A stretch of DNA of 64,000 nt from Clostridiales bacterium (lineage in GTDB: Bacteria > Bacillota > Clostridia > Oscillospirales > CAG-272), in assembly GCA_022793655.1 (NCBI GenBank), contig JAAWDG010000013.1, positions 62,001 to 126,000 on the forward strand. The letters run 5' to 3'. The notes below the pieces were generated by a model. That model worked only from the letters and a program-made list of their open reading frames with translations. It was not told where the DNA came from and ran no database searches. Below are positions 1,269-3,758 of the stretch, one piece after another. Within the stretch, counting starts at the first letter, position 1. Each line of letters begins with the position of its first letter. A program made the position numbers and the translations under genes.

Positions 1269-2429
1269 TTATAAATAAGGGCGATCAACTTCAACAATAG
1301 GAAACGTGTTTTCAAATTTTTCCCGCATAATCAGGTTGATTTTTTGCCGTATTTCTTCTTCTGAAAGCTTGATTTCGTGCGGTACAACAATATCAAAAAT
1401 TACATTGGTATGGGAAGGCCCCTCAACCATGCGGAAATCATGAATAGTCACGTCGGATGAAATGGCTTTCATTTCCGCGGCTACCCGTTCGCGCATTGAG
1501 GTAACTTTATCATCGTCGGTAACAACTGGATCCATGTGAATCACACTGTGGCAGTTGAACTTCTCGTTCAACTCTTTTTCGATGCAGTCAATTTCATCAT
1601 GCAGGGCAAAAATATCACCGCTGCCATCCACTTCGGCATGTAAAGAAACCATAAGCCGTCCGGGACCGTAATCGTGTATGACTAAATCGTGCATGCCTTT
1701 AACAACAGAGTGGTTTAACACAATTTTTTCGATATTTTCTACCAATTCTTTATTTGGCGGGCCGCCTAAAAGAGGCGCAACCGTTTCTTTTACCGACTGA
1801 ATGCCTGAATATAAGATGAACAAAGATACGGCAATACCGCAATAGCCATCAATATTGATGCCTGAAAAGTGAGCAATCAGCATGCTGATTAGAACGACTG
1901 TGGTAGCAACGGCGTCGTTAATGCTGTCTCTGGCGGTTGCGTTCATCGCCTGCGAGGCAATTTTTTTGGCTATGGATCGGTTGTAGATGAACATATAGCC
2001 TTTTACTAATATGGAAACGACCAAAATTGCCATGGCCAAATAAGAAGCGTCAACCGCTTCGGGTGTAATGATTTTTTGAATGGATTCTTTGGCTAAGCCA
2101 AGGCCTACGGCAATAATGATGACCGAGACGCCTACTCCGCTGATATACTCAATGCGGCCATGCCCAAAGGGATGCTCTGTATCCGGTTTTTTTCCGGCCA
2201 GCCGAAATCCGATTAGGGTAATGGCCGAGGAACCGGCATCAGAGATGTTGTTAAAAGCGTCCGCTGTGATGGCCACCGAGTGCGAAAGCAGGCCGGCTAT
2301 ATATTTTCCCGCAAAAAGAAGGAGGTTTAAAAAAATGCCGACAAGACCGCACAGTGTACCATAAGAACGTCTGCCTTCGGGTGTATCTGGTTTTTGCTTG
2401 ATAAAAAATTTAGATAGAAGGGTAATCAT
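1269..2429 (-). CDS. Cation diffusion facilitator (CDF) metal efflux transporter
   Basis: 386 residues. CDF proteins exchange divalent metals (Zn, Fe, Mn, Co) for protons at the cytoplasmic membrane. About six membrane helices span residues 25-205. Family marks are visible: the metal-site aspartates in 'ITADAFNNISD' (D57, D64) and the 'HPFGHGRIE' loop after helix 2 (H86, H90). The cytoplasmic tail is long and seems to hold two dimerisation-type units (about 225-300 and 310-386), the second ending 'VEVDRPYL'. The start is the ATG at 2429 with an AAAGGA site 11 bases upstream. The upstream region holds tandem structured repeats and a hairpin. The metal cannot be named from sequence. Confidence 0.92.
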   Translation of the reverse strand: MITLLSKFFIKQKPDTPEGRRSYGTLCGLVGIFLNLLLFAGKYIAGLLSHSVAITADAFNNISDAGSSAITLIGFRLAGKKPDTEHPFGHGRIEYISGVGVSVIIIAVGLGLAKESIQKIITPEAVDASYLAMAILVVSILVKGYMFIYNRSIAKKIASQAMNATARDSINDAVATTVVLISMLIAHFSGINIDGYCGIAVSLFILYSGIQSVKETVAPLLGGPPNKELVENIEKIVLNHSVVKGMHDLVIHDYGPGRLMVSLHAEVDGSGDIFALHDEIDCIEKELNEKFNCHSVIHMDPVVTDDDKVTSMRERVAAEMKAISSDVTIHDFRMVEGPSHTNVIFDIVVPHEIKLSEEEIRQKINLIMREKFENTFPIVEVDRPYL

Positions 2430-2517
2430 CCATGTAAAAATCCTTTCTTTTCAAATGATCCGACAGTGGGCGGCGGTTATATAGAGATGCTGTTGATTGT
2501 TCATCATAGAAATAGCA

Positions 2518-2546
2518 CCCATTCTCTTTTTTGAGAATGGGTTTTA
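2518..2546. other. Strong hairpin upstream of the CDF gene
   Basis: CCCATTCTC and GAGAATGGG pair around a T-rich loop, followed by TTTT on the plus strand. As a plus-strand terminator it has no gene to serve. On the minus strand it would fold in the 5' leader of the CDF transporter, about 90 nt before the start. The role is unknown. Confidence 0.55.
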
Positions 2547-2568
2547 AATAGAATGCTTATTGAAACTA

Positions 2569-2663
2569 TAAGAATAATCCTTGCGGATTATTCTTAGGAA
2601 ATTTAACTGGTCGTGCAAGTATGCCTGCACGACCTGCCGGATAAACCGGCACCGTTAAATTTC
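2569..2663 (-). repeat. Structured intergenic repeat, copy 1
   Basis: A 12-bp hairpin (2569-2596) is followed by a 10-bp outer stem (2598-2607 with 2654-2663) that encloses two smaller hairpins (2609-2634 and 2635-2651), i.e. a three-way junction. Read on the minus strand, the first hairpin has a GCAA (GNRA) tetraloop, and the 2609-2634 hairpin extends through a G-U pair that would be an A-C mismatch on the plus strand. This favours a minus-strand RNA. Copy 2 lies 119 bp away. It is either a transcribed RNA element or a dispersed repeat family. Confidence 0.6.
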
Positions 2664-2687
2664 AAGGTGACGCAAACTTTATGCAAC

Positions 2688-2781
2688 TCTAAGAATAATC
2701 CTTGCGGATTATTCTTAGAAAGATTGACTTGTTCCCCCATTCGGGGGTGACATTCCGGCGACGCCGGAAGCGCCAATCTTT
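2688..2781 (-). repeat. Structured intergenic repeat, copy 2
   Basis: Same layout as copy 1: a 14-bp hairpin (2688-2719) with the same GCAA tetraloop on the minus strand, then an outer stem (2719-2726 with 2774-2781) closing two hairpins (2734-2747 and 2753-2769). The first hairpin is almost identical to copy 1. The outer stem and the inner hairpins differ in sequence but keep their pairing. Both copies are followed on the plus strand by a similar 'AACTTTAT' tract. The remaining sequence between the permease and CDF genes (2430-2858) shows no gene. Confidence 0.6.
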
Positions 2782-2858
2782 ATGGCGGTTAAAAACTTTA
2801 TATAACCAAGTAAATCTGCGAAAATATTTGTCTTTATTTTATGCAAGTTTGTTTCTGG

Positions 2859-3758
2859 TTATCCGGCTTTTTTGCTTTTTACATAATGCATAAAAATATA
2901 AATAACAATCAAAAGACCAATGGTGCTTAAGAGTATTAAATACATGGTTTCGATAGGAACCAACTTGTCAAAGAAATAAACGTTGCAGTCGACAGCGTTT
3001 TTCATTTGATCAATGACGTCGGTTGGTATTCCCTGCAACGCCATTTCTTCATACACGCCGCGCATGGCATGATTGCGCATGAGCGAGGTGCCATATGTAC
3101 CCGGCAGAAAGGAAATGACCTTTTGAATCCCTTCCGAAAACTGGGAAATTGGCATATAGGCCCCGCAAATAAACCCATAGCCCGCACTGATGATAGTGCC
3201 CACTGCTGAAATTTGACCTTGCGAATGCAGAAAGAAATGAACAATACTTGAAAGCGCCGTGCCGAACATAGCCAACAAAAAGGTGTCGAGCAATAAAAGC
3301 AGAACATCAGTAACGCTCATGTACCAGCCAGTGCTGGCTGCGTAAATAAGACACAACCCTACGGCAGTATAACACACAATAAGGGTGGAAATAAAGGCGG
3401 CCAGATAATAACTCATTGCCAAAACAGATGCTTTCACCGGCGCAATGGTTAAGTCTTTTATGGTGCTATTGGCTTTATCCTGCACCATGAGCATGTTTGA
3501 ACAAAAGGCAACCGTTACGCAGGAAACGGCTAACAGCGAGGAGATTAACTGACTGCTGACCAAGCCATTTAGGAGCTGATCGGTGAAGCTGATTCCCGTG
3601 GGCAAGGTGGATGTAAAGCTGTCACGATACACCTTGCTGAGGAAAAGCGCGTAAAGGGACAATAAAATCGCCGGTGTAATTAAAGAGGAAAAAAACATCC
3701 CCTTGTCTTTGAAAAAGAGTTTTGTATTTCTTTTAATCAGTGCTTGCAGCGTGTTCAT
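2859..3758 (-). CDS. ABC-2 type transporter permease
   Basis: 299 residues and about six membrane helices in the DrrB/ABC-2 arrangement. An N-terminal cytoplasmic stretch ('LIKRNTKLFFKDKGMFF') precedes helix 1, a large outside loop carries 'DSFTSTLPTGISFTDQLLNG', and a 'GAYMPISQFSEGIQKVISFLPGTYG' segment typical of ABC-2 permeases comes late. The start at 3758 overlaps the ATPase stop as ATGA, so the two are translationally coupled. It probably exports a drug, lipid or glycan together with the ATPase at 3755-4669. The substrate is unknown. Confidence 0.9.
   Translation of the reverse strand: MNTLQALIKRNTKLFFKDKGMFFSSLITPAILLSLYALFLSKVYRDSFTSTLPTGISFTDQLLNGLVSSQLISSLLAVSCVTVAFCSNMLMVQDKANSTIKDLTIAPVKASVLAMSYYLAAFISTLIVCYTAVGLCLIYAASTGWYMSVTDVLLLLLDTFLLAMFGTALSSIVHFFLHSQGQISAVGTIISAGYGFICGAYMPISQFSEGIQKVISFLPGTYGTSLMRNHAMRGVYEEMALQGIPTDVIDQMKNAVDCNVYFFDKLVPIETMYLILLSTIGLLIVIYIFMHYVKSKKAG

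Follow-up and report, generated by a model that had tools for sequence, protein, structure and literature searches.

A foldable DNA repeat behind sigma-A extended -10 boxes of a Clostridiales genome, probably a non-autonomous mobile element

Between a cation efflux (CDF) gene and an ABC-2 type permease gene, the window (the whole stretch of 64,000 nucleotides analysed here) carries two tandem structured copies, which raises the question of whether they are an RNA read with a neighbouring gene or an element of a different nature. The earlier note placed them at 2569-2781 and described each copy as a cap hairpin followed by an outer stem around two hairpins, which is what is seen in both units. 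The copies do lie at that place, while the units themselves run further, with tails to about 2808, and form one array of two tandem units on the plus strand at 2570-2808 (window sequence). The unit architecture consists of a palindromic cap hairpin, a three-way junction and a tail of about 25 nt:

2559-2569, plus strand: position of the left -10 box, ATTGAAACTAT; degenerate, 3/6 to TATAAT; the sister species has ATTGTATAAT at the aligned place
2570-2595, plus strand: unit 1 cap hairpin, AAGAATAATCC TTGC GGATTATTCTT; perfect, 26 nt
2598-2663, plus strand: unit 1 three-way junction, type A; outer stem 2598-2607/2654-2663
2609-2634 and 2635-2651, plus strand: unit 1 inner hairpins, inside the outer stem of the type A junction
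2664-2690, plus strand: unit 1 tail, AAGGTGACGCAAACTTTATGCAACTCT; its end is where other units have the extended -10 box, degenerate here
2691-2716, plus strand: unit 2 cap hairpin, same sequence as the unit 1 cap
2719-2781, plus strand: unit 2 three-way junction, type B; outer stem 2719-2726/2774-2781 plus two inner hairpins
2782-2808, plus strand: unit 2 tail and right end of the array; the covariance-model match stops at 2808
1269-2429, minus strand: cation efflux (CDF) gene, neighbour, antisense to the units and outside the element
2859-3758, minus strand: ABC-2 type permease gene, neighbour, antisense to the units and outside the element

The window array and its family

The fold of the array (241 nt) is beyond chance on either strand, with z values of -10.9 on the minus strand and -9.7 on the plus strand and none of 200 shuffles as good. 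Since the CDF and ABC-2 permease genes lie on the opposite strand, the window array is antisense to both neighbours. A separate hairpin, CCCATTCTC / GAGAATGGG, adjoins it at window positions 2517-2542 and is also found where the sister species aligns.

A covariance model built from 25 units (R1) finds 137 matches at E <= 1e-3 in the host genome (G000; 1.8 Mb, assembly 94% complete), or 125 once overlaps are dropped, with covariation and a fixed context, as the earlier note had anticipated for a genuine structured element. The window thus holds 2 of about 125 family copies, which are grouped into 86 arrays of one to five units (56, 24, 4, 1 and 1, respectively). Searched with up to three mismatches, the cap alone is found 26 times in the host genome and its reversed control 0 times, although a few near-perfect palindromes enter the count twice, once per strand. 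At least two unit pairs located at contig ends have 100% identity and probably represent one locus each, counted twice, since the repeats interrupt the assembly. The unit itself is dispersed, measures about 105-125 bp and contains no open reading frame, and no terminal inverted repeats are found in 25 single units, whose end similarity is no better than that of shuffled sequence. Similar units at unlinked loci reach up to 94% identity, and in most of the top unlinked pairs the stretch of identity is bounded approximately by the left and right -10 boxes, which marks the copied unit.

Among the 25 units, 94.8% of cells are paired and 24 of the 34 pairs show changes on both sides, with a covariation score of 0.445 as compared with 0.179 +/- 0.011 for shuffled alignments and at most 0.091 when the partners are slid. 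The compensating stem changes reported for the two copies are therefore borne out across the family, and the family-wide covariation supports selection on structure. If the mobile-element reading given below is right, strong covariation in intergenic repeats is, taken alone, no evidence of a functional RNA. The outer stem sorts the units into several junction types. The cap is recognised in 77 of 88 units, with 70 distinct sequences among the 77 that vary yet stay paired, which is the reason why an operator for one repressor was set aside. A solo cap hairpin with inverted -10-like flanks and without the three-way junction is also observed at L111:2501-2591 (G000 C18:77277-77367).

In an Rfam search of the window only two tRNAs reach the gathering score, the other matches being sub-threshold and chance-like, in agreement with the earlier statement that the element belongs to no known riboswitch class. 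A minus-strand RNA is not supported. The GCAA (GNRA) loop is indeed present on the minus strand of both window copies, whereas across the family the loop varies: among 59 four-base cap loops, GNRA is found opposite to the unit strand in 17, on the unit strand in 4 and on neither in 38. The proposed minus-strand-only G-U signal is not borne out at family level, where G-T and A-C mismatches in the stems are balanced overall (81 vs 69 in 88 units, p = 0.37). Intact units (G-T 8 vs A-C 20) and decayed units (73 vs 49) lean in opposite directions, each weakly (p about 0.04), and we read this as no consistent RNA strand; the overall balance would favour DNA over RNA, although it conceals these two opposite biases.

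Placement behind promoters and the two -10 boxes

The fixed context of the family is a sigma-A promoter that shares the strand of the unit. In the window this is the plus strand, opposite to the CDF gene, and not the minus strand on which the copies had been thought to be read with that gene. Sixty-nine arrays have sufficient upstream sequence and contain a unit scoring 50 bits or more. In 61 of them a match of at least 4/6 to TATAAT ends 0-4 nt before the first cap, and in 51 of the 69 it ends at exactly 0 nt; the corresponding background, taken 25-70 nt upstream, is 31% and 7.9%. The consensus before the first cap, TRTGNTAYAAT, is that of an extended -10 box. Furthermore, TTGACA (at least 4/6) is found at a spacer of exactly 17 in 25 of these 61 arrays, whereas every other spacer from 5 to 39 accounts for 0-6 of 61. 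Ten columns of the R1 model lie upstream of the unit and might bias it towards -10 boxes. The -35, however, is not part of the model, and when arrays are sought from the cap pattern alone, 15 of 18 still show a -10 box before the first cap. It is from this promoter context that the direction of a unit is judged. The downstream gene is co-oriented with the unit in 42 of the 53 arrays where the strand could be told, a count that relies on our own ORF calls and excludes arrays below 50 bits or overlapping short ORFs. The window array is atypical in both respects, with its degenerate -10 (3/6) and no co-oriented gene downstream.

Such a position, just behind promoters and before co-oriented genes, is also what would be expected of a 5' leader RNA family maintained by the host, transcribed from the preceding promoter and acting in cis on stability, attenuation or RNase processing. 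The strong covariation is in line with this reading, as is a terminator-like hairpin that closes one array and is retained in the sister species. We nevertheless consider it unlikely: with the cap directly behind the hexamer, much of its 5' arm would fall upstream of the normal start site, and G-U is no commoner than A-C overall. The downstream genes are unrelated, since ten tested downstream proteins (of 51) fall in different families, which equally speaks against an RNA belonging to the CDF gene; several conserved promoters of the sister species lack the unit, and none is found in two congeners. The terminator-like hairpin itself follows the array at L092 (G000 C10:60172 onward), its arms repeat the cap arms, and it is kept in contig C78 of the sister species (L156) though the intervening unit differs.

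The array's two ends resemble each other. In the 29 of 64 arrays with a recognisable -10 at both ends, the left and right -10 8-mers agree at 6.55 of 8 positions, as compared with 5.82 +/- 0.13 when permuted (p <= 2e-4). The excess is confined to the ten or so bases that end with the hexamer and declines outside them (n = 25), and it is seen too in the 20 arrays without a second cap. Many different -10 core variants occur among the arrays. Either a duplicated target or a recombination core would be expected to produce such a matching pair.

Taken with the copy number, the like placement of a second family in the genome G044 and the differences between species, both described below, these features suggest that the array is probably a dispersed, non-autonomous mobile DNA repeat whose insertion target is the extended -10 box of sigma-A promoters. 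Insertion would occur in one orientation, directly behind the -10 hexamer, and would leave an extended -10 box on both sides. Because the box would flank the insert on both sides, the upstream -35/-10 pair would stay intact and the gene would keep a start-proximal extended -10, so that insertion could be tolerated and the host promoter may well keep working. Every insertion would create a new target at its right end, which would allow tandem arrays to grow. The elaborate single-strand fold, cap hairpin plus three-way junction, would be recognised as DNA, presumably by a recombination enzyme that moves the unit, and the second -10 would be a true target duplication.

The same pair of boxes can be read differently, namely as the core site of a cassette that circularises and integrates by means of a tyrosine or serine recombinase; the two -10 copies would then match because crossover requires identity, and not by target duplication. 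Core direct repeats flanking the unit, ends without inverted repeats, head-to-tail arrays and promoters at which the two species carry different units are all compatible with such a cassette. It is likewise improbable, given that the core variants are many and different and that G000 has two Phage_integrase genes only, the stronger of which is also strongly matched in the congeners that lack the repeat. Strong Phage_integrase matches occur in all four genus genomes, for which reason the stronger G000 gene is, from its distribution, probably Xer-like, and a tyrosine recombinase is an unlikely mobilising enzyme. Upstream of one host tyrosine recombinase gene there is a weak unit (41.9 bits; L179:803-912; G000 C13:6182-6291).

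No mobilising gene was identified among the four enzyme families searched, i.e., Phage_integrase, Y1_Tnp, RVT_1 and UPF0236. Y1_Tnp (PF01797) is found in 0 of 4 genus genomes (control positive in 5 of 14), which speaks against an IS200/IS605 derivative or a REP/RAYT element, and RVT_1 in 0 of 4 (control positive in 3 of 14), which argues against a retro-element. UPF0236, a Pfam name which we take to denote the ISLre2-type transposase, is found in 0 of 5 genomes, where no positive control was matched either.

Comparison with the sister species and congeners

The distribution of the repeat within the genus is narrow. R1 has at least 59 matches in the sister species (G001) and none in the congeners G002 (68% complete) and G003 (93% complete). 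When the sequence downstream of 25 array sites was queried in G001 and G003, 18 sites were found in G001, and at 15 of these 18 the upstream flank aligns too (C3:1542, C16:39490 and C24:3073 were left out). Four of the aligned sites lack the unit and retain the -10 in G001, namely C14:90948, C15:86945, C18:20921 and C24:23087. The unit is also absent at C22:45897, at C22:116265 and at the window site, C24:64560, where the sequence before the first cap reads ATTGTATAAT in G001 as compared with ATTGAAACTAT in the host; this orthologous region without a unit is a further argument against an RNA that belongs to the CDF gene. The cleanest empty site is C15:86945, where G001 has TTTATGGTATACT|GTAAATAATA and the host GTGGTATAAT|unit...ACTTTATGGTACAAT|ATAAATAATA. 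The junctions are not base-exact because the identity between the two species is about 80%.

At the other sites G001 holds something different in place of the host unit: a solo cap at C1:151542 and C18:24383, and a different or decayed unit or cap at C1:185384, C5:81580, C7:18657, C7:26802, C12:1956 and C24:185834. Two longer alignments add the three cases that could be read clearly in them. At C18:6555 G001 is without units and the promoter is retained, at C18:14699 it looks to hold a degraded unit, and at C10:59904 the caps and the terminator are those of the host but enclose a single unit of a different type.

Different units and solo caps at shared promoters also fit old residents changed by conversion. 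Accordingly, the repeat could be an old, vertically inherited palindrome linked to promoters, whose arrays expand, shrink and exchange modules through slippage and through gene conversion among the copies, new insertion being rare or absent. The solo caps and cap-cap runs behind -10 boxes, the orthologous promoters with different caps that are each paired, and the arrays in which the second cap equals the first are readily accommodated in this way. Against it stand the four G001 promoters that retain the -10 without a unit, the absence of matches in G002 and G003, and the closely similar units shared by unlinked loci, so that purely vertical descent appears quite improbable. As a whole, the initial reading of the locus is thus supported only in part, although the observation on which it was built is confirmed.

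Known elements and distant genomes

BOX elements of Streptococcus and neisserial intergenic mosaic elements form head-to-tail modular arrays in which a conserved palindrome lies between variable modules, like the present repeat; to our knowledge they show no placement at a promoter box. REP/BIME elements with RAYT transposases consist of palindromic units whose fold matters for mobility, whereas the repeat occurs in a genus of which four genomes have no Y1_Tnp domain.

Oriented insertion at a fixed position of a sigma-A promoter is shared with the p-MULT elements TnGBS, ISLre2 and ISKra4, according to the excerpted text of PMC3942029. In the same excerpt these elements have inverted repeats and their own DDE transposase, whereas the repeat has neither and no ORF; the p-MULT elements, e.g., TnGBS, insert 15-17 bp upstream of the -35, in contrast to a position directly 3' of the -10. 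Correia/NEMIS and other MITEs resemble the repeat in being of about 100-200 bp, non-coding, dispersed, mainly intergenic and foldable, and some bacterial MITEs carry promoter sequences (PMC2229807 and PMC10969869, in excerpt). The repeat, being short, non-coding, dispersed and multi-copy, agrees with the MITEs in these properties. MITEs have terminal inverted repeats (excerpts of PMC2229807 and PMC10969869), whereas the repeat has none and its target is an extended -10 box; with ends that lack inverted repeats it is not a classical MITE. Stem-loop sequence families are, like the repeat, repeated intergenic sequences with a common predicted fold, and their abstract describes no placement at promoter -10 boxes (PMC2267715). 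In titles and abstracts of the literature, mostly outside subscription journals, no element described as placed behind a -10 box was found. Promoter-targeting insertion and small foldable repeats are thus both known, and the present combination is not met in the consulted portions of PMC3942029, PMC2229807, PMC10969869 and PMC2267715.

A scan of named genomes with the cap pattern returns 11 loci. High-scoring units are confined to two of them, both from JAAVYP (76.7-83.3 bits, besides a partial unit of 42.5), and none of the remaining nine exceeds 35.5. JAAVYP is G001 itself (100% identity over 1361 bp). The order-wide scan scored 11 candidates per genome, so that its negatives are weak. Viral carriage was discarded, as it was suggested by one contig only, with a weak match (34.9 bits).

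One genome of another family in the same order (G044) gives weak R1 matches. A second covariance model, R2, built from six G044 units, has 55 matches in that genome and none in 35 other genomes searched. Thirty G044 loci were read; a -10 lies directly before the unit in 17 of 26 first units, an independent replication of the placement, and in most of the remaining nine an additional cap separates unit and -10 (by eye). A -35 at a spacer of exactly 17 is found in 11 of these 17, as compared with 0 to 3 for the other spacers from 8 to 29. The left and right -10 match is not significant in G044, with p = 0.08 for 8-mers and p = 0.58 for 11-mers (n = 12 of 18), so that a duplication is not established there. 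The sequences of G044 and of the host differ, and the order of -10, cap, three-way junction, GAAA... and -10 is common to both.

Tentatively, and with somewhat more doubt than confidence, the repeat may represent a new class of mobile DNA that targets the sigma-A extended -10, with a design common to two distant genomes and an enzyme that would recognise the fold. If true, the core promoter itself would be the place where this small mobile element lands and which it then rebuilds, and this would explain how more than 100 insertions beside ordinary genes are tolerated in a genome of 1.8 Mb. Two questions then become testable, namely the identity of the enzyme that recognises DNA folded as a three-way junction and the way in which a promoter fires when its two -10 boxes enclose a structured insert.

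A further genome, G119, contains four tandem units of 103 nt (L157:1728-2090), AAAGTTTGCACTTG...GTGCAAACTTT. They resemble the repeat in their three-way junction but have neither a cap nor a -10, and are possibly a distant relative.
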